This document shows positions 4,502 to 63,130 of a stretch of 64,000 nt of DNA, piece by piece (position 1 is the stretch's first letter; each line of letters opens with the position of its first letter). The translations under genes and the position numbers were made by a program. Below the pieces are notes generated by a model. That model was not told where the DNA came from, made no database searches, and worked only from the letters and a program-made list of their open reading frames with translations. Origin of the DNA: a virus; IMG/VR virus record IMGVR_UViG_3300025853_000041, positions 41,182 through 105,181 of that record. One strand, 5' to 3'.

Positions 4502-5413
4502 ATGAGTATGTTAAATTATGTAACTATTGACAGGATATTTTCCAAACTACACAGGGACTTAAGAGGTACTGAAACAAATGAAACTGATGTTATTGAATGG
4601 ATTGGGGAAGCTTTAGATTTCTTAAAAGTACCTCAAGTACTTGAAGAGAGGGTAGCTATTGTTACTGTATCTGATTATCACGCTGAGATACCTGATAATT
4701 TACATATGGTTACTCAGATAGCAAGAAATAATAGTTGGACAAAATCTTGTGCCTGTGAAGGAGCATGTGCTTGTACAACAGAAGAAACAGTGGTGGAAAC
4801 TGCTACTCCCTGTGACGAGGACCCATGTAATACTGTAAATCCAGAAATTACTTTAGATGATTGGTCCTATACAATCTGGACCAGTTCAGAGCTATACCAA
4901 AGAAATTATACTCCTGTCAGGCTTGCCACAGGAAGTTTTTTCAACAATTTAGTATGTAAAGAAAAAGATTTATCTCTATATTTGACCTGTGAGGATGAAT
5001 ATACCATTGTGGGTACTACTTGTAAGAGGCTTAGATTTAATTTTATTGAAGGTCAGGTAGCTATTTCTTATTTAAAGAATGTGGCAGATGAAGATACTGG
5101 ATATCCTTTAATACCTGAGAACATCTCTTATATAACAGCAATCACTTATTATATCAAGTGGAAGTTAGCTGAATTATTTGAATGGGCAGGCAGAGAAGGT
5201 TGGGCAGGTAAGGCAGAAAAAGCTGAACAAAGATGGCTTAAGTATGCAAGACAAGCAAAGAACCAACAAAAAATGCCAAAGACTTTAGATGAATATCAAA
5301 ATCTTTTAGAGCAAACACACTACTTAATTCCAAATCACAAGAGATATTATGGTTACTTTGGAAACTTAGGTAAAAGCCAAACAAGACAATTTAATAATTT
5401 TAATCGAGTATAA
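4502..5413 (+). CDS. P22 gp4-like tail accessory / tail tubular protein
   Basis: A 303-residue protein. The N-terminus (TIDRIFSKLHRDL, then VIEWIGEALDFLKVPQ) matches the helical start of P22 gp4 / T7 gp11-type proteins, which join the portal to the tail tube. A Cys-rich acidic loop lies at about 100-130 (CACEGACACTT, then CDEDPCN), with eight cysteines in some 30 residues; this is unusual and may bind metal or form disulfides. The C-terminal part has a Trp-rich helix (KWKLAELFEWAGREGW) and a Tyr/Asn-rich tail. Directly followed by the muzzle gene with a one-base overlap. Confidence 0.7.
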   Translation: MSMLNYVTIDRIFSKLHRDLRGTETNETDVIEWIGEALDFLKVPQVLEERVAIVTVSDYHAEIPDNLHMVTQIARNNSWTKSCACEGACACTTEETVVETATPCDEDPCNTVNPEITLDDWSYTIWTSSELYQRNYTPVRLATGSFFNNLVCKEKDLSLYLTCEDEYTIVGTTCKRLRFNFIEGQVAISYLKNVADEDTGYPLIPENISYITAITYYIKWKLAELFEWAGREGWAGKAEKAEQRWLKYARQAKNQQKMPKTLDEYQNLLEQTHYLIPNHKRYYGYFGNLGKSQTRQFNNFNRV

Positions 5414-8400
5414 TGGCAAAGAAAATAACAGAAACTGGTATAGGGCTACATTTAGATAGTGCTATCGTAGAAAGACCTAAAGGAACTTATAGATATGCCC
5501 TCAATGCAGTTATGGAAACTGACCTTGGGGACATTTCTCTTTTATCTAATGAAGAAAGTAATGAGCCCTGTGCCTATTTGCCACAAGGTTACACTCCTCT
5601 TGGAAAAGTTTATATTGGTGATAATAGAACTGCTATATTTTCAAAAAGTGCTGATGGTTTACTTGATGAGATAGGTATATTAGATAATGCTTGTACATAT
5701 ACTACACATGTAAATGGGGATTTAGGTTTTAGTATAAACCACCAGATAGATGCTACATACAGATTAAGAAGAGGATGTGAAACTACAATTTACTGGGTAG
5801 ATGGAAAGAACAATAAACCTATGTATTATGTATTTGAAAAACCTCAACAATTTAAAGATGGAGCTGGAGATTGGCTTAAAACAAAATTTGAACTTCAAAG
5901 AAGTTATAGAAAAGTACCAAAATTTGAAGATGTAATTTTACAGAATTCAGGTGGTGCTCTTCCTCCAGGGTCTTACAATATTGCAGTACAATATTTAGAT
6001 GAAAATCTCAATCCTACTGAGTGGATTGCCACATCAGAGGTAATTATTTGCTATGGGGATGATACCACAGAAGCATATTTAGAAATTGAAGGAGAGATTA
6101 ATATTGCAGAAGGAGCAGATGTAGAAGATTATAGAACTTTTGGAGATACAGATAAGTCTATAAAAGTAGTGATGGATAATTTAGATGAAACTTTTTTATA
6201 TTATCGATTAGCTTTTATAGGAGCAAACAATGGTAGTGGTCAAATTAATGAAATCCATTTTACTGAAAAACTGCCAACTCAAAACAATATTTTTATATAC
6301 ACTGGAACAAATTTTGAAACAGAGGGTACTCTTGAAGAGATAGCTGAATTCAACAGTATAATTGAATCAGCAGGAAGTATAGAACAAGCAGACAATATAT
6401 TAATTTTAGGTAACACTCAAGGAAAACAAATAAACTATTGTAATCTGCAAAGATATGCTTCTCGAATAAATACAGATTTGGTCACTAAAAAAGTGTTCAC
6501 AAATCAAATGGTTGATGAAGCTAATCCAAAATACCCAACAGCCAGATTTAATGGTGTAGGGTATCAGCCAGGGGAAATATACTCTTTAGGAGTTGTGTAT
6601 GTATTTGGAGATGGTACACAAACTCCTGTATATCATATTCCTGGAAAAAACCCTACTATTTTAGATTCAGGATTAAACAATGTCTCTCAAGATTTTGTTT
6701 TTGCTCCTGGAGAAAATGTATATCCTATGTCTCCTGATAATGAGAGTCTTAACAGTGTGTACAGTGATAATGATACTTGTTCAAATTCAGACTATTGGGG
6801 TACAGATTCCATAGGAGATGCACTAAAATTTTCAAAAGTAAGACACCACAGATTTCCAAAAAGAAGTGAGTTAGGTATTGATTTTGTAAATGTAGAAACT
6901 GTTATTGGTGGAGACACAACTTTTTACCAAGTCTCTTTAAATATAACTGGAAATTTAGTTACAAACTGGATTTGTGATGAGGCAGGGGTGACTGCTGGAA
7001 CATGTAGTGTAGTAGGAGAACAAGTACCTATGCCAACATTCCAAGCAAGAGTCACTTTTGATGTTGATGGTGTAACTGACTATTTAATTGTAAATATTAA
7101 TCCTTCAGATTATATTGAGTCAGGTTTGACTACTGCTATTAATATTACAGAATACTCAGACTATTATACCACACCTTTAATTACTATCACTAACATAGAA
7201 GAAAGTTTAGATGATGGCACAAGTGCAAGTATTGGAGTAAGTTCAGGAACAGGAGATGCAGAACATGGGCTTCTTAGTTATCAAGCTGCTTCAGGAACTG
7301 CTGTCTTTACAGCAGAAACAAAAATATATTCAACACAAATTTATGGGTTGAAATTTTCAAACATTGAATTACCACCTACTTCAGTAACAAATGGAGAGAA
7401 AATTATTGGTTATTATATTGTTAGAAATGAGAGAACCGAAGAAGAAAAAACTATTTTAGACACTGCTGTTTTAACTCCTTCTACTATCAACGAAAAATAT
7501 ATTGCTCATGGATTACTATATCCTGAGTTTGGGACACTTGATAGAAAAATCTCAGATAGGGTATTTGGATTAATCTCACCTGAATTTCTTTTTGAAGGTA
7601 AGAAATATCCTGAGTTCACTAGCTTAAAACAAGAAGGTAGATTCAGTGTTATTGACAGACTAAAAAGTAAATCGAGATATCTTGATATCACTGATGGGAG
7701 TAGTTATGATTCTTCAGTACATAAAAGTGGTGGAGGTAAAGATAAAGATGGTTGGTCAATAAAAGCCATCACAAGAGATAATATAACAGAATTTGAAAAA
7801 GTATATGATGATTTCAACTTAGTACAAGATGATGTAGAAGATATTTTTTATTTAGATGCTTTACAAAGTCGAGACATTGAAGATGATTCTTTTTCTGTAT
7901 TTAATATTGCAGGAGACAACAAAGTGGGTATTTTACAATTAAAAGAAGACACTAGTGCTGTAATTGATAACACTCTCCCTTATGTATATTTAGAAAGACC
8001 AATTGCAGATTCTTATTCTACATTTAGGTCACTTCCTTATTATAAGGTTAGTCAAAACCTTCATGAATTTTATTTAGCTGATGGTGAGACATATGACCCA
8101 GCTAGTGCTGAAGCCACTTTATTTAATGGTGATACTTATATTACAGCTTTGAGATATTTGAATACAGTATGGTGGGACAATAGAGTAGCTAAAAGAGCAG
8201 GAAGAACTTCTGTTTGGGATTACATTATTGGAGCTATTTTACTTGTAATAGGGACTATCTTACTAATATTTGGTGGGTCTGGAGCTCTTGTTATAGGAGC
8301 TGGTATCGCAATTATAGGAGGTTCATCCTTATTTGTTTCATCAGGTATCAGAAGAGATGCTTTGGTAAGAGCTTATTATGATGAGTATGATAAAGGACTT

Positions 8401-11253
8401 AGAGAAACTTTATTAGATGATTGGATAAACTATGAGTATATTGATTTACCTTGTGATAGAGGTGGGAGCAATAAGTGTCATACCCCTGAAGATGATGAGA
8501 TAGAGTGGGCTGCTGACTGTGTAACAGACATGTGGTTTGAATCTCAGGTTAACATATCTTTAAGATATGGAATGAGTTCAAGACCTTCTACATTCTTAGC
8601 TGCTCCAGGTAAAATAGAATCTGGAAATGATTTCTTAGAACGACACTATGAACATTTTGATATCTATAAACAAAGAGATGTATCTATTTATCCTTTTACA
8701 AAATTAGATTCTCATATAATGGAGAAACTTATAACATTCAATCCTGAAAGAGAAGACAGTAAAGAGTATATAGGACACCCATTAGGAGAGTGGTATAAGA
8801 TAAACCCTGATTATAAAAGAACTAACAAAGAGAAAGTGTTTTTTCACTTACCTCTTGAATATGACTGTTGTTCAGAGTGCCAAGAAGATTTTCCTCATAG
8901 GATTAATTACTCACAACAATCTTATCAAGAAGAACTTACTGATAATTTTAGAGTGTTTTTACCTAATAATTATAGAGACATAGAGGGAGAGACAGGGCAA
9001 ATTACAGATTTGTTCAGAATTAAAAATAATATATACATACACACTGAAGAAGGATTGTGGCACCAACCTCAAAACTTTCAAGAGAGAGTTACTGGAGATA
9101 TTGTATCCTTTCTTGGTACAGGAGAATATTTTAGTACTCCTCCAAGAAAAATATTAGATGATAATAAAGCATCAGGTGGTTCAAGGCATAAAGATGCAAC
9201 TATTAAAACTAAACATGGTGTATTCTTTCCTTCTGAAAATGAAGGGAAAGTATATGTTTTTGATGGTAATGAGTTGAAACCTATTAGTGACCTGGGACTC
9301 AACTCCTGGTTCTCTGAAAATGGTAAAATTCAATTGCTTTCAGATTATTATGAGACTACTGGAAGACCTTATCCTTATGATAGTAATCCTTCTAATGTAG
9401 CAGGAGTAGGGTATGTAGCAGTTTATGATAGTTTAAAGGAAAGATATATTCTTACAAAACAAGACAGAATTCTTGCTGATACAATCACAGGAGACACTGA
9501 GATATGTGTAGATAACAATGGTAATACAATTTTGATAGCAGACTATCAAGCAACTATTGATACTTATGAAGGTAATGGATGGACATTTTTAGGTCTTGAA
9601 AACTGTCAACTAAAATTTGAAAAAATTACTTATACAACTGAAACAATAACAGGAGAAGTAACAGCAGAAGAACCTTTACCTAATGATGTAGATATTCATG
9701 TATTCTATGATACTTCAGGTTCTTTTGATGCAGCAGGGTTAGCTCAGTTACATGCAACTGTTGATGCTTGGGTAGCTAATTATGGTGCTAGTAATCCTGA
9801 TTGGATTGGTAATGTATATGAATATGATGATGCTACTGAGCAATGGCTTAAGTATGCTGACATTATGGAGAGCACTACATACTTTGGTCAAGACCTTAGT
9901 ACTAAGAATGTGCTAGTTGTTTCATTTTGTAATGAAGCTCAGGGAACTCAGGGTGATGGACCTTACCATGGAGTAGGACCAGTTGACAATCCTCTACCTG
10001 CTGTGGAAGCAACTTTTACTGCTGACTATAATAATTTTACAGAAATTACATACCCTAAGTACTTATCCTTTATAGGTATTCATTATCCTGTTGTATTTGG
10101 ACCAGGTACTCCATCTAGTGATTTAACTAGTTCAAGAAACTTTGTATTACATTCATTAGCAGCATTAAAAGGAGTTCCTTATACTTTAGCTGAAGTAAAT
10201 GCTTTAAGTGAGAATTTAGGTTTTGATACTGGAGAATGGGCAACTTTAAAAGCTTCTTTACAAGGGGCTAATCCTTATCCTAACAATGGTTTAGAAAATT
10301 TTGGTTGGCTGGTACAGGAAGATAGATATGTCTCAGCAGCAGGCAGTATAATCACTCCTGCACAGTTTCAAGAGGACATCACAGCTCTATTAGAAGGAAG
10401 TAATACTACAACAGTTACAGAAACTGTGGTAGAGGTTCAAGTTCCTGTTCTTAATACAGAATTTGTATCTGGAGTTGTAGGAGACATAACTAAAGCTGAT
10501 AATTCGTGGACTATGAGTTTCAACTTAAAGAAAAGTTCTTGGACTTCTTGGCACTCCTATATACCAAACTTCTTTATGCATATTGCAGATAAATTTTGGA
10601 GTTGGAAAATTGGTAAGAAGGCAACAGAGAAAGTTGCAGAAGAACAAAATGTATTTTGGAAGCATAATAAGAAAGGACATTATCAAAATTTCTATGGAGA
10701 AAGACATCCTTTTACAGTAGAGTATGTGTCTATGGAAGATAAACTCAAAACAAAAATTACAGATGATATTCTTTTATATACTGAAGCAAGGAAATATAAT
10801 TCTGCTATGAAGCAATATTTTGACCAAAAAGATGTCACTTTTAATAAGGCTATTTTCTATAATTCAAGTCAATGTACTGGAGAGGTTACGTTAAAAGTTA
10901 AAGATGGACCTTCATTAGACGATAAAAATTATCTTCTTGACCAGGTAATTGATATCTCTGCAGGCACTATTATTATTGATAAAAATGAAAGAGACTGGTC
11001 TATAAACGACTTAAGAGATATAAGAGTAGATATTGACCAACCTATATGGGATGCTGATATAATGTCACGCCAATCTGAATATTATACAGATAAAATATTA
11101 AATGTTTCATCTTTGGATGAAAATAAAGATTGGACTGAATTAGAAAGTTTAAGGGATAAATATTTGGTAGTTAGATTAATATTTGATACTTTTGACGATG
11201 TCAAGTTGATATTGAACTATTCCATTGATTCTCAGACAGATTCCCAAAGGTAA
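5413..11253 (+). CDS. Giant tail muzzle/stabilization protein (P22 gp10-like) with VWA-like insert
   Basis: A 1946-residue protein starting MAKKITETGIGLHLD, the usual start of crAss-like stabilization proteins that plug and extend the short tail. The N-terminal ~900 residues look like a beta-propeller or beta-sandwich region. Residues 938-977 form a long Gly-rich hydrophobic stretch (two possible membrane passes). Residues about 1060-1400 resemble the propeller-like P22 gp10 region. Residues about 1425-1640 look like an inserted von Willebrand A-like domain: a hydrophobic strand followed by D1433-T-S-G-S1437, which fits a MIDAS DxSxS motif. The C-terminal 280 residues return to beta-rich tail sequence. 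It overlaps the gp4-like gene by one base. Role: virion tail; the VWA call is inference. Confidence 0.75.
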   Translation: MAKKITETGIGLHLDSAIVERPKGTYRYALNAVMETDLGDISLLSNEESNEPCAYLPQGYTPLGKVYIGDNRTAIFSKSADGLLDEIGILDNACTYTTHVNGDLGFSINHQIDATYRLRRGCETTIYWVDGKNNKPMYYVFEKPQQFKDGAGDWLKTKFELQRSYRKVPKFEDVILQNSGGALPPGSYNIAVQYLDENLNPTEWIATSEVIICYGDDTTEAYLEIEGEINIAEGADVEDYRTFGDTDKSIKVVMDNLDETFLYYRLAFIGANNGSGQINEIHFTEKLPTQNNIFIYTGTNFETEGTLEEIAEFNSIIESAGSIEQADNILILGNTQGKQINYCNLQRYASRINTDLVTKKVFTNQMVDEANPKYPTARFNGVGYQPGEIYSLGVVYVFGDGTQTPVYHIPGKNPTILDSGLNNVSQDFVFAPGENVYPMSPDNESLNSVYSDNDTCSNSDYWGTDSIGDALKFSKVRHHRFPKRSELGIDFVNVETVIGGDTTFYQVSLNITGNLVTNWICDEAGVTAGTCSVVGEQVPMPTFQARVTFDVDGVTDYLIVNINPSDYIESGLTTAINITEYSDYYTTPLITITNIEESLDDGTSASIGVSSGTGDAEHGLLSYQAASGTAVFTAETKIYSTQIYGLKFSNIELPPTSVTNGEKIIGYYIVRNERTEEEKTILDTAVLTPSTINEKYIAHGLLYPEFGTLDRKISDRVFGLISPEFLFEGKKYPEFTSLKQEGRFSVIDRLKSKSRYLDITDGSSYDSSVHKSGGGKDKDGWSIKAITRDNITEFEKVYDDFNLVQDDVEDIFYLDALQSRDIEDDSFSVFNIAGDNKVGILQLKEDTSAVIDNTLPYVYLERPIADSYSTFRSLPYYKVSQNLHEFYLADGETYDPASAEATLFNGDTYITALRYLNTVWWDNRVAKRAGRTSVWDYIIGAILLVIGTILLIFGGSGALVIGAGIAIIGGSSLFVSSGIRRDALVRAYYDEYDKGLRETLLDDWINYEYIDLPCDRGGSNKCHTPEDDEIEWAADCVTDMWFESQVNISLRYGMSSRPSTFLAAPGKIESGNDFLERHYEHFDIYKQRDVSIYPFTKLDSHIMEKLITFNPEREDSKEYIGHPLGEWYKINPDYKRTNKEKVFFHLPLEYDCCSECQEDFPHRINYSQQSYQEELTDNFRVFLPNNYRDIEGETGQITDLFRIKNNIYIHTEEGLWHQPQNFQERVTGDIVSFLGTGEYFSTPPRKILDDNKASGGSRHKDATIKTKHGVFFPSENEGKVYVFDGNELKPISDLGLNSWFSENGKIQLLSDYYETTGRPYPYDSNPSNVAGVGYVAVYDSLKERYILTKQDRILADTITGDTEICVDNNGNTILIADYQATIDTYEGNGWTFLGLENCQLKFEKITYTTETITGEVTAEEPLPNDVDIHVFYDTSGSFDAAGLAQLHATVDAWVANYGASNPDWIGNVYEYDDATEQWLKYADIMESTTYFGQDLSTKNVLVVSFCNEAQGTQGDGPYHGVGPVDNPLPAVEATFTADYNNFTEITYPKYLSFIGIHYPVVFGPGTPSSDLTSSRNFVLHSLAALKGVPYTLAEVNALSENLGFDTGEWATLKASLQGANPYPNNGLENFGWLVQEDRYVSAAGSIITPAQFQEDITALLEGSNTTTVTETVVEVQVPVLNTEFVSGVVGDITKADNSWTMSFNLKKSSWTSWHSYIPNFFMHIADKFWSWKIGKKATEKVAEEQNVFWKHNKKGHYQNFYGERHPFTVEYVSMEDKLKTKITDDILLYTEARKYNSAMKQYFDQKDVTFNKAIFYNSSQCTGEVTLKVKDGPSLDDKNYLLDQVIDISAGTIIIDKNERDWSINDLRDIRVDIDQPIWDADIMSRQSEYYTDKILNVSSLDENKDWTELESLRDKYLVVRLIFDTFDDVKLILNYSIDSQTDSQR

Positions 11254-37336: not shown

Positions 37337-38953
37337 CTAATTTGTATAATTTGCTACTGTCACATCATCTTTGTTGATAATAGCATAGTTACTTGAAAGT
37401 AATGTACAAACAATAGAAACTGAACTTTCTAAAGCAATTCTCACTACTTTATAAGGGTCTATAATTCCTGCTTCCATCATTGAGTCAACAAACTCTCTAT
37501 TTTTAACATCATATCCTGTTCCTTCAGGTCTTGACTCTATACCTAATTCAATTACTTCAGGTATTAATCCTGCATTTACAATAATTTGTCTAAAAGGTGC
37601 TTTAACTACATTTAAGAGAGTGTTGTATCCAGCTATTAAGTCTTCACTTATTGCTGGCTTAAACTTTTTACCTCTTAAATGATTACTAGCTGCAAGCAAT
37701 TCAGTACCACCTCCATTGATAATTCCTTCTTGAAGAGCTGCTTTAACTGCATATTTACAATCTTCAGCTCTATCAAATAATTCCTTACCTTCTTCTTTAG
37801 ACATAGCTCCAATTTTAAGAACAGCTACACCACTAGTGAGTTTTCCTAATCTTTCATTCAAGATATCAACCTCATACTTATTACCTTTAAAGTGCTCAAG
37901 CTGAGATTTAATAAATGCTTCTCTTTCAGCAATAGCTTCTTCTGTTCCAAAACCACCAATAAATGCAGTATCTTTTGCAGTAATTTCAGCTCTTTCCATT
38001 TCTCCTAACCAACTTGGGTCAAAATCTTCAGGTTGAGTATCTTTACTTACCACTTTAGCTCCAAATAGAGCAGCCATGTCATGAAGTCTTTCAACTCTCT
38101 TATTACCATAGCCAGGAGACTGAACAATTGCAGAAACTACATTACCTTGAATGTGGTTTACTACTAAACCTCTCAGTGCACTGTCTTTTACGTCTTCAGC
38201 AACAATAATCAATGGTCTGTTTTTCTGCCCAGCAGCTTCAACAGCAGCAAATACTTGTTTAAATTGAGATACCACTCCATCAAAAAGTAAAATAAGAGGA
38301 GTGTCAAACTCTGTTTTCATCCTGGTTTTGTCTGTAACTGAATAAGGAGAAATATATCCCCTATCAAATTGCATACCTTGAATAATATTTTGAGTTGTCT
38401 GCATTCCACTACCTTCAGTAATAGATATTACTCCATTAACACCCAATTCATTATAAATATTTGTAATTGTTTCAGCTAAAACTTCATCTCCATTAGAAGA
38501 AATTAATGCAACAGATTTTAGTTCTTCAGTATTTAATTCCACGTCTTTAGACCTTTCATTAACATACTTTAAAACATCTACCATTGCAATTTTTATCCCT
38601 CTAATAAATTCTGCAGGAGCTACTCCTAGAGCTAATTGTCTTTTCCCTGCATTATACAGAGCTTGAGCAAATACAGTTGCAGTAGTAGTCCCATCACCAG
38701 CTAAATTATTAGCTTTTAAGGCTACATTTTTAACTAATTCTGCACCAATACTTTCAATAGTATTAGGGTCAAAAACAATCTCTTCTGCAACACTTACTCC
38801 ATCTTTGGTTACAATTATTTCACCAAATACATTCTTTATTGCAACAGTGTTACCCATAGGACCTAATGTATCTTTAACTGCATTAGCTAAGTCATTTATC
38901 CCTCTACTGATTCCTTCTCTGAAATCATCTTCTTTTACTATTTTTTCTGTCAT
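37337..38953 (-). CDS. groEL: Phage-encoded chaperonin GroEL
   Basis: A 538-residue group I chaperonin. Key ATPase residues align with E. coli GroEL and even keep the numbers: TLGPMG (29-34), Asp51 in TKDGVSVA, Asp87 in AGDGTTTA, Asp398 in RAEDCKYA, and the nucleotide loop GIINGGGTELL. The apical domain is recognisable (EGMQFDRGY-like QGMQFDRGYISPY, then IIVAEDV and VQSPGYG). The C-terminus lacks the Gly-Gly-Met repeat tail and ends in DDVTVANYTN. groES lies directly upstream with an ATGA overlap, so the pair is translationally coupled. It probably folds large phage proteins, such as the multi-thousand-residue virion proteins; that link is inference. Confidence 0.95.
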   Translation of the reverse strand: MTEKIVKEDDFREGISRGINDLANAVKDTLGPMGNTVAIKNVFGEIIVTKDGVSVAEEIVFDPNTIESIGAELVKNVALKANNLAGDGTTTATVFAQALYNAGKRQLALGVAPAEFIRGIKIAMVDVLKYVNERSKDVELNTEELKSVALISSNGDEVLAETITNIYNELGVNGVISITEGSGMQTTQNIIQGMQFDRGYISPYSVTDKTRMKTEFDTPLILLFDGVVSQFKQVFAAVEAAGQKNRPLIIVAEDVKDSALRGLVVNHIQGNVVSAIVQSPGYGNKRVERLHDMAALFGAKVVSKDTQPEDFDPSWLGEMERAEITAKDTAFIGGFGTEEAIAEREAFIKSQLEHFKGNKYEVDILNERLGKLTSGVAVLKIGAMSKEEGKELFDRAEDCKYAVKAALQEGIINGGGTELLAASNHLRGKKFKPAISEDLIAGYNTLLNVVKAPFRQIIVNAGLIPEVIELGIESRPEGTGYDVKNREFVDSMMEAGIIDPYKVVRIALESSVSIVCTLLSSNYAIINKDDVTVANYTN

Positions 38954-53084: not shown

Positions 53085-53675
53085 TTATTTACTTCTTCTT
53101 GTTCTTTTTTTAGGTGCTTCTGGAATATCTTCAACAACAACAGTAGCAGGCTCTATTGCCTGAGGTTTTGGTGGTGGTGAAGCTTTATATGTCACAGCAA
53201 CAACATTAAATTCAGATAATACGTCTTTAAGGACAGGTAATACATCCTTCCAAGAGCCTCCACCTATACCACAACCAATCTGAGGAACATAGACAGTAAA
53301 TGTATGTCTTTGTTCAGGTGGTATTGTAAAAGTTAAAGCTTTGATGGAAGTTTTTAGAGCATCTATATCAAAATTTGCTCCTGGATTATATTGAGTATAT
53401 AAGTTTGCACCTATTTTCAATTGGTCCTGTGTATCAGCCAATACTACTGCACTAAAGCTTCCAAACCTTTGTGTAGCTAATCTTGAATCATATTGGTCCA
53501 GATAAAAAAGGGGAGGAATATTGTGCCTTATTTGAGCTGCAATCCCTGCTCCCATTTGTTTTTGACAATTTGCTCCATGCATTATGATAGCACTTGTCTC
53601 GCTTTTGAAGAATAGCTCAATAGCATCCCCTTCAACCTCTACAAATGTAGGGCTTTTTTTCTTATTTTCACTCAT
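53085..53675 (-). CDS. Macro-domain protein
   Basis: A 196-residue protein with a macro domain: IIMHGANCQKQMGAGIA (30-46) and VPQIGCGIGGGSW (about 129-141), the two loops that bind ADP-ribose or related ligands. The C-terminal tail is Pro-rich and ends in a basic cluster (KKRTRRSK). Macro domains bind or hydrolyse ADP-ribose conjugates. Two roles are possible: reversing host ADP-ribosylation or NAD-derived signals used in anti-phage defence, or handling tRNA-processing phosphates. Neither can be chosen from sequence. Confidence 0.8.
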   Translation of the reverse strand: MSENKKKSPTFVEVEGDAIELFFKSETSAIIMHGANCQKQMGAGIAAQIRHNIPPLFYLDQYDSRLATQRFGSFSAVVLADTQDQLKIGANLYTQYNPGANFDIDALKTSIKALTFTIPPEQRHTFTVYVPQIGCGIGGGSWKDVLPVLKDVLSEFNVVAVTYKASPPPKPQAIEPATVVVEDIPEAPKKRTRRSK

Positions 53676-61311: not shown

Positions 61312-61980
61312 TTATAAATTTTCTTTAATCCAATTATCATCAAGAGGTTTTGTATGTAAGACAGGAAACGCAAGATAGCCTTCATTTATACCTCTTCTAA
61401 AGGTTTTATTGCCATATGCTATCATTTCTTCTCTACTATACATCTTCTCTTCAACTACAGAAGTGATTGTAACTTCATTGTCTTGGTTTAGTTTGAGTTT
61501 ATCATTACCATAAAACCTTCGTACTCTGTCTTCTGTAAAGCCATCAACATAGCTTTCTTCGTACTCGACCTCCCACTCTCCATCAGGATTAACAACAAAC
61601 TCTTTTAAGAATGATTGTTGTACTTGTGGTACTTGACAAGAATGACTTTTACTTATAGGCATTCTAAGCTTAGGGTCAGTAGTTGCTATGATTTTTCTAC
61701 AAAACTTAAACCTATAATCTTTTTTATGATTAATTAAATGTCTAGTTTCAGTATGTGTTTGAACGCTTTTTTGAGATTCAGTAACAAACATATCAATATA
61801 CCAGTCTCCTTCTTTAATAGGTTCTACCTCTTGAGATACTGTGATGTATAGGTGACACTGAGTTCCATTAGGTTTTCCAACCCTATATTTACCTTCTATT
61901 AAGTACCCTTTGTCATGAGTATATAATGGATAATCCTTATCTTCTGTTGGTAGCGTTACTACCTGTATTTTATGTTTCAT
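61312..61980 (-). CDS. Small-block paralogue B, 222 residues
   Basis: A tandem paralogue of the next gene upstream (61990-62715). Shared landmarks in order: QVVTLPTED, HLYITVSQEVEPIKEGDW, CRKIIATTDPKL, QQSFLKEFVVNPDGEWEVEYEE and LNQDNEVTITSV with EEKMYSREE. No enzyme motif is recognised; beta-strand content is high. The family occurs, from memory, in other Bacteroides phages. It may be an early host-interaction protein. Confidence 0.65.
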   Translation of the reverse strand: MKHKIQVVTLPTEDKDYPLYTHDKGYLIEGKYRVGKPNGTQCHLYITVSQEVEPIKEGDWYIDMFVTESQKSVQTHTETRHLINHKKDYRFKFCRKIIATTDPKLRMPISKSHSCQVPQVQQSFLKEFVVNPDGEWEVEYEESYVDGFTEDRVRRFYGNDKLKLNQDNEVTITSVVEEKMYSREEMIAYGNKTFRRGINEGYLAFPVLHTKPLDDNWIKENL

Positions 61981-61989
61981 TGTGCCATT

Positions 61990-62715
61990 TTATAAGTTTT
62001 CTTTAATCCAATCTTCTATTGTACTATATTTAGGAGATAAATCTTTAGGTAAATCAGCTATAATATGTATATCCACTACACCATCTTGAGAATTAAATTC
62101 TCTTGCACTATTAAAAGCATCTGTAAGTTCATCTTTACTATACATCTTCTCTTCAACAGAAGTAATATTAACAGTATTGTCTTGGTTTAGCTTGAGTTTT
62201 GGGTAATCTTCTTTTACTTCCATATCAGTTCCCCACCATTCATCATACTCAACTTCCCACTCTCCATTAGAATTAGCAATAAATTCTTCTAAGAATGATT
62301 GTTGTAGTTGTGGTATCTTCTGATAATTTTTACCCTCTATTCTTGTTATCTGACAATTATAAATCTTACAATTATAATTTTCACCCACATACTTTAAAAG
62401 TTTAGGGTCAGTAGTTGCTATGATTTTTCTACAAGCTTCATTAGTATAACATAAATGATTATCAGATTCTAAATCATTGGTACTATTAAAGCCTACACAT
62501 TTATGTATAGTAGTAGAATCTCCTACAATAAACAAATCACCTACTTTAATAGGCTCTACATCCTGTGATACTGTGATGTATATGTGTTGAGTGATACTGA
62601 AACTTGTTCTTTTATACATGTCATCTAAATAGGAAGGTGTTTTAGAATCCCCTATTATAGCAATAGGACTGTTATCTTCTGTTGGTAGCATTACTACCTG
62701 TGCTTTATTTTTCAT
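61990..62715 (-). CDS. Small-block paralogue A, 241 residues
   Basis: The first member of the tandem pair, sharing with the next gene QVVMLPTED, HIYITVSQDVEPIKVGDLF, CRKIIATTDPKLL, QQSFLEEFIANSNGEWEVEYDE and LNQDNTVNITSVEEKMYS. It has an extra Cys-containing insert (NCKIYNCQITRI) and a different C-terminus. It starts 17 bases after the tmRNA 3' end. Function unknown. Confidence 0.65.
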   Translation of the reverse strand: MKNKAQVVMLPTEDNSPIAIIGDSKTPSYLDDMYKRTSFSITQHIYITVSQDVEPIKVGDLFIVGDSTTIHKCVGFNSTNDLESDNHLCYTNEACRKIIATTDPKLLKYVGENYNCKIYNCQITRIEGKNYQKIPQLQQSFLEEFIANSNGEWEVEYDEWWGTDMEVKEDYPKLKLNQDNTVNITSVEEKMYSKDELTDAFNSAREFNSQDGVVDIHIIADLPKDLSPKYSTIEDWIKENL

Positions 62716-62732
62716 TATTCATTTATTTTTAG

Positions 62733-63130
62733 TGGAGACGCTGGGACTCGAACCCAGGTCTTTCACATATCAATAATAATATTTTATACAGCTTCACGTT
62801 TCTTTAAATTCTTTACGCTAGATTAGGACCAACTGTTAAGTTGATGCTCCACCAGATTGTTTTTTTTATCACAGACAGTAACAATCAAATCTATCTGTTG
62901 CATAATCTTAGCTTATGCTGCTATTAAAACTTGACCTCCCATGGTATCTTGCGATACACCTTGGAAATCATTAAGAATGTTGTGAACAACACTCATGTTA
63001 GCTTCAATCTGTGCAGTTTCCTGCGTACTAGTTGTGTTTCCATTTAAGTAAACTCACCTTAGTTTTAGACAGTTATCTCTCTGTGCTGAATATTATTAAA
63101 TCGCTATGAAATCAATTCCATGTCGTCCCC
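62733..63130 (-). ncRNA. ssrA: Phage-encoded transfer-messenger RNA (tmRNA)
   Basis: Read on the minus strand from 63130. The 5' end GGGGACG pairs over seven positions with CGTCTCC (62734-62740), giving the acceptor stem, with discriminator A at 62733. The D-region ACATGGAATTGAT resembles tmRNA consensus TGGATTCGAC. The T arm is CTGGG-TTCGAGT-CCCAG. The P2 helix forms from TAATAATATT (63089-63098) with AATATTATTA (62774-62783) and CAGC/GCTG. After the tag stop lies an H-type pseudoknot: stem 62891-62898 with 62871-62878, and loop 62880-62886 with 62855-62861 (7 bp). No CCA is encoded. tmRNA with SmpB rescues stalled ribosomes and tags the product for proteolysis. Length 398 nt, normal for the class. 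Confidence 0.9.
62913..63041 (-). other. Predicted tmRNA tag reading frame, about 42 codons
   Basis: Within the tmRNA, the only frame ending in a hydrophobic-Ala-Ala tail is ...GGQVLIAA then TAA (62913-62915). It is open back to a TGA 12 bases before GGA at 63041. TTAAAT-GGA resembles the Porphyromonas resume site (TTAATT-GGC), so the tag may begin GNTTSTQETA. A later Ala codon would give 33 residues. Known bacterial tags are usually 8-35 residues. The resume codon is inferred. Confidence 0.55.

Follow-up and report, generated by a model that had tools for sequence, protein, structure and literature searches.

A tmRNA is charged with alanine, delivered to ribosomes together with SmpB, and adds an alanine followed by a tag peptide. 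Its tags are usually thought of as short degrons, and the E. coli ssrA tag consists of two parts, AANDENY, which binds SspB, and LAA, which binds ClpX. Reviews give a range of 8–35 aa for ssrA tags (PMC8012679, PMC6133939), the tag of Chlamydia trachomatis being 22 aa long (PMC12493166). Phage tmRNAs are already known (PMC4131195; PMC9004378), including the two-piece tmRNAs of marine phages such as Melnitz (PMC9004378), and the question of why phages carry them dates from the first ones found. The tmRNA of Cellulophaga phage Calle has been published as no more than a single gene in a table, with its tag undescribed (PMC8776804). RefSeq viruses were screened for the 2025 tmRNA database, so some of the sequences described here may be contained in it, and the passages searched of the accompanying paper do not discuss long phage tags (PMC11915505). 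In the open-access literature, which defined our scope, we found no description of a class of phage tmRNAs with long tags.

Our window is a stretch of 64,000 nt from a virus record of 105,181 bases (IMG/VR IMGVR_UViG_3300025853_000041). It contains a one-piece, complete, phage-encoded tmRNA (ssrA) gene of 401 nt on the minus strand (62730..63130). An earlier note on this DNA had called a tmRNA from the letters alone, and a full-length match to Rfam RF00023 confirms the call (57.4 bits with a gathering score of 47, E = 9.7e-21, model positions 1–374). ARAGORN, run on the window, did not call the gene. The 5′ strand of the acceptor stem, GGGGACG (63124..63130, minus strand), holds G3 of the G3-U70 alanine identity pair, and the 3′ strand, CGTCTCC, is followed by the discriminator A73 and then by CTA (62730..62740, minus strand); a CCA end is not encoded. 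The RNA thus has an alanine tRNA-like acceptor. In 67 distinct relatives for which we could locate both gene ends, these ends are kept and the acceptor stem covaries: all seven pairs form, with compensated changes at pairs 4–6, and G3-U70 and A73 are invariant (67/67).

At the position of pseudoknot 1, upstream of the tag, we find a short hairpin, ACAG-AGAGATAA-CTGT (63069..63084, minus strand). Its loop GAGATAA is almost invariant and its stem covaries, the variants in relatives being CCAG/CTGG, GCAG/CTGC, TCAG/CTGA, GAG/CTC and CGTG/CACG. Inspection by eye revealed no second pseudoknot 1 stem in the phage tmRNAs, and, leaving the tag aside, these RNAs are shorter than those of hosts (median 255 nt versus ∼365 nt). 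This seeming reduction of pseudoknot 1 to a hairpin and the shorter non-tag RNA could affect efficiency. Together with the missing ARAGORN call, the reduced pseudoknot 1 might also speak for a degenerate, non-functional tmRNA, either a chance passenger or the remnant of an integration site, but we regard this as hardly conceivable given the covarying acceptor stem, the invariant G3-U70 and A73 and a conserved open tag in more than 80 distinct phages. The RNA in the window is a true tmRNA and is selected as such.

The tag frame (62913..63041, minus strand) comprises 42 codons (63041–62916) followed by TAA (62915–62913) and encodes GNTTSTQETAQIEANMSVVHNILNDFQGVSQDTMGGQVLIAA; the coordinates and length given earlier are correct, and the frame is conserved in relatives. 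Base shuffles of the window tag remain open ∼5% of the time, so that an open frame alone is weak evidence. Decisive for the frame is the comparison of phages: among the matches listed, it is open in 84/84 distinct nucleotide tags, none of which is open in either of the other frames; all 81 distinct tag peptides have N or K as their second residue; and the resume codon lies where hosts have theirs. The first codon is GGC, GGA or GAC across at least 123 phage loci. In 11 Bacteroidota genomes, ARAGORN predicts 9-aa tags, mostly GE[DNE]NYA[LM]AA, and their resume codon sits where that of the phages does; these genomes were reached with an approximate SmpB bait sequence, the matches of which are not counted as evidence. 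In the window, GGA at 63041 is preceded by TTAAAT, and the site AAAT/GGA (63039..63045, minus strand) corresponds in position and form to the host AAAC/GGC. The likeness to Porphyromonas tmRNA proposed in the earlier note is borne out to the extent that the site is of Bacteroidota type. Comparison with flavobacterial hosts indicates that the phage tmRNA resumes at GGA, where these hosts resume (AAAC/GGC). A later resume codon yielding a 33-residue tag, which the same note had considered, is unsupported, and we rejected it in view of the conserved [GD][NK] start and the conserved resume position.

Relatives were collected by patterns in the RNA and not by a tag profile, and their prevalence is a lower bound. 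Scanning 2.9 million viral contigs with AGAGATAACTGN{0,12}AAACTAAGG, a pattern upstream of the tag, returned at least 119 loci. Added to the isolates and to the genome from which the window comes, these loci, with many uncultured phages among them, give at least 123 loci with readable tags (84 distinct nucleotide tags, 81 distinct peptides). The isolates, located as partial BLAST matches, are Cellulophaga phages phi14:2 (Crassvirales, Steigviridae) and phi38:1, phi40:1 and Calle (Pervagoviridae), and Flavobacterium phages (Fipvunavirus). Read from the shared resume place, their tags measure 38 aa in phi14:2, 30 aa in phi38:1, phi40:1 and Calle, and 35 aa in the Flavobacterium phages, and share the middle of the window tag. 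In phi14:2 and Calle, ARAGORN sets the beginning of the tag too late; long phage tags are missed or cut short by standard tools. The 81 distinct tags among the matches listed are 24–49 aa long (median 35) and lie in the same frame, at odds with the short tags in another frame that had been named as a possible counter-finding. At 42 aa, the window tag is indeed far longer than is typical, exceeding both the 9 aa of hosts and the published range of 8–35 aa (PMC8012679), and it does not resemble the host type GExNYALAA.

Comparison of the tags divides the window tag into three segments on the minus strand: a variable leader, GNTTSTQETA (63012..63041), which in relatives has 1–14 residues and always starts with [GD][NK]; a conserved core, QIEANMSVVHNIL (62973..63011), with the motif QxxANMxxVxx[LI][LI]; and a variable tail, NDFQGVSQDTMGGQVLIAA (62916..62972), with a degron-like LIAA end. 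The ANM of the core is present in 80/81 distinct tags among the matches listed, an agreement that is not built in, since the scan pattern contains no tag portion. A second RNA pattern, with the upstream side relaxed and the resume site included, returned at least 10 further tmRNAs, 8 with ANM, 1 with SNM and 1 with neither. Two phage tmRNA tags of 49 and 29 aa (L036 and L284) lack the ANM core but retain both the usual start and the terminal AA.

The tag is selected at the peptide level. Measured over 14 codons of the core in 68 distinct nucleotide sequences, dN/dS is ∼0.20 in the tag frame (pN/pS is 0.41 uncorrected), compared with 0.85 and 1.66 one base off; as pairwise averages that ignore the tree, these figures are descriptive, and the contrast between frames is the point. 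Third codon positions are the most variable in the core (permutation p = 0.0085). The core lies inside a structured RNA with strongly conserved neighboring segments, and could in principle be conserved as RNA, through a structure or a ribosome contact, rather than as peptide. We consider this very improbable: synonymous sites are almost saturated (pS is 0.67) with the amino acids fixed (Q, A, N and M are invariant, V and the two [LI] nearly so), leucine and isoleucine codons differ widely, the frame controls are negative, and the distance of the core to the resume and stop codons varies. Codon analysis with frame controls largely refutes conservation at the RNA level. AlphaFold, run on the tag alignment, predicts a helix for residues 3–28 (pLDDT is ∼91 over residues 11–20) and has low confidence in the tail. 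Neither the helical-wheel periodicity of conservation in the core (p = 0.13) nor its hydrophobic moment (p = 0.14) is significant.

The window tag ends in hydrophobic residues and a C-terminal AA, and the degron-like end claimed for it has its counterpart in relatives, as 76/81 distinct tags among the matches listed end in AA. LIAA itself is not the conserved feature, being found exactly in 7/81 distinct tags; conserved instead are the AA and the internal ANM core. The AA end is kept through very different tails, which points to degradation by ClpXP-type proteases. Leaders and tails vary freely. The tags look mosaic, with tails such as KTEMLIAA or GDDTQEEASYEVELA[MV][AV]A behind differing leaders, and leaders before differing tails. 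Long tags with a conserved core are common to over a hundred related viral sequences, a lower bound on prevalence.

These features would in part be expected if the RNA served plain ribosome rescue and the long tag were tolerated, with only the AA degron at work and the rest a spacer that replaces lost pseudoknots and maintains the length of the mRNA-like loop. The AA ends, the freely varying leaders and tails and the lengthening of tags while the remaining RNA shrinks are all consistent with this, but the invariant Q, A, N and M, the nearly invariant V and [LI] positions and the dN/dS of the core, across several phage groups, make it an unlikely account. An unused spacer would not keep the core, which must thus have a further role; the earlier suggestion of an extra function for the long tag is strengthened by a conserved core under protein-level selection. 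In our analysis the core most likely serves to dock the tag on a partner, either from the host or from the phage. Alternatively, the tag could be a functional phage peptide, an inhibitor or effector made as a C-terminal fusion, with proteolysis of the carrier secondary or merely releasing the peptide. A selected core of small-domain size with a predicted helix would suit such a peptide, as would the tags that do not end in AA (Calle and phi38:1 end VAVGV, phi14:2 ends VA). The degron-like end of most tags, however, speaks for degradation, and neither the core nor the tag has a match among solved structures in the PDB, nor does the tag motif recur in the six frames of the phage loci compared. 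We judge this reading rather improbable.

Within the collections searched, the long-tag tmRNA is restricted to phages. A search of 84,980 bacterial and archaeal species, each represented by one genome, yielded no exact match to the phage RNA pattern; diverged prophages would escape such a search. In 395 host-class genomes, the tag profile returned nothing beyond two ExbB-like proteins, both matched by chance. With these and the phage-locus and PDB comparisons, we rejected the idea that the motif copies a phage or host protein. SmpB was found in 0/17 long-tag phage records, and the window's phage likewise has none, so host SmpB must serve. As ClpP gave a single sub-cutoff match in the same 17 records, we also discarded SmpB or a common phage protease as the tag's partner. 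A phage chaperonin was set aside in the same way, Cpn60 being present in only 7/17 of these records.

The phage of the window probably infects a flavobacterium, because its 1,946-aa protein (5413-11253) shares 42% identity with a virion structural protein from Flavobacterium phages FpV4 and Fpv3. It carries a second tmRNA gene outside the window (L126; minus strand, record positions 7947-8326; Rfam, 57.3 bits), with a 40-aa tag, GNTITTQETAQIEANMSVVHNILASKHLNDVVTGELQMAA. Identity between the two copies is 97% upstream of the tag, 92% over codons 1–24 and 99% across the final 107 bases, but only 44–51% from codon 25 to ∼75 bases past the stop. The difference spans the tag tail and the following stem, and because identity drops only there, we conclude that a tail cassette has been exchanged between near-identical tmRNA copies. 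In each of 25 other long-tag phage records, only one tmRNA scores above the cut-off. Another contig (L107) contains a copy identical to the second tmRNA. Directly downstream of the tmRNA in the window is a 241-aa ORF without a Pfam family (61990..62715, minus strand), followed by its 222-aa paralogue, also without a Pfam match (61312-61980, minus strand). An ORF resembling the former adjoins the second tmRNA, as though tmRNA and ORF had been copied jointly. We note these ORFs as genomic context and do not count them as parts of the tmRNA system. Elsewhere on the minus strand of the window we note a Cpn60/GroEL-like chaperonin (37337-38953, Pfam PF00118, 1.4e-54) and a small protein whose match to the Macro domain is weak and barely above cut-off (53085-53675, PF01661).

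Taken together, we favor as the probable reading a functional phage tmRNA that is charged with alanine, uses host SmpB and encodes a two-part tag, with a docking helical core and an AA degron tail; activity, proteolysis, docking and the partner are inferred. The phage tmRNA would be charged via its G3-U70 acceptor, enter stalled ribosomes with host SmpB, and resume at GGA, appending an alanine and the 42-residue tag. The hydrophobic-AA degron of the tail would direct the product to host ClpXP-type proteases, and the helical core would dock the tagged protein on a putative partner, be it an adaptor, a protease or a phage protein, so that the phage would control the fate of proteins made from its broken mRNAs. 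Whether these RNAs form a phage-specific tmRNA class, with the ANM module docking to a dedicated partner and reprogramming the fate of proteins from rescued ribosomes, in place of mere host quality control, we see as evenly balanced. If they do, such proteins may be channelled to another protease or phage factor, or the tag itself may be an inhibitor. More than 80 distinct flavobacterial-type phage tags contain a motif of 13 residues that is clearly selected as protein, and their carriers include growable isolates (Cellulophaga phi14:2, phi38:1 and Calle, and Flavobacterium psychrophilum Fpv phages). Finding the motif's binder would be a direct route to explaining why phages bring along a ribosome-rescue RNA of their own.

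The tmRNAs of Calle (annotated) and of phi38:1, phi14:2 and the Flavobacterium Fpv/FPSV phages (unannotated) belong to the same group as that of the window. Earlier phage tmRNAs are likewise phage-carried, without a reported need of their own SmpB (PMC4131195, PMC9004378); long tags with an internal motif are not part of their descriptions, and it is by these descriptions only that we set them apart. Long bacterial ssrA tags also exceed the usual 10 aa, but the phage tags reach 49 aa (42 in the window) and have an internal motif common across phage groups. With the tmRNA of Flavobacteriia hosts, the phage RNA shares the tRNA-like domain, the place and type of the AAAC/GGC resume site, G as first tag residue, a hydrophobic-AA tag end and a total length of ∼400 nt. 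The host RNA differs in its 9-aa tag, GE[DN]NYALAA, which lacks the ANM core, in a full pseudoknot 1 with two evident stems, and in a longer structured region after the tag. The E. coli ssrA tag has no sequence likeness to the phage tag, but it provides the precedent for an adaptor docking site combined with a C-terminal degron, the arrangement that we propose for the phage tag.
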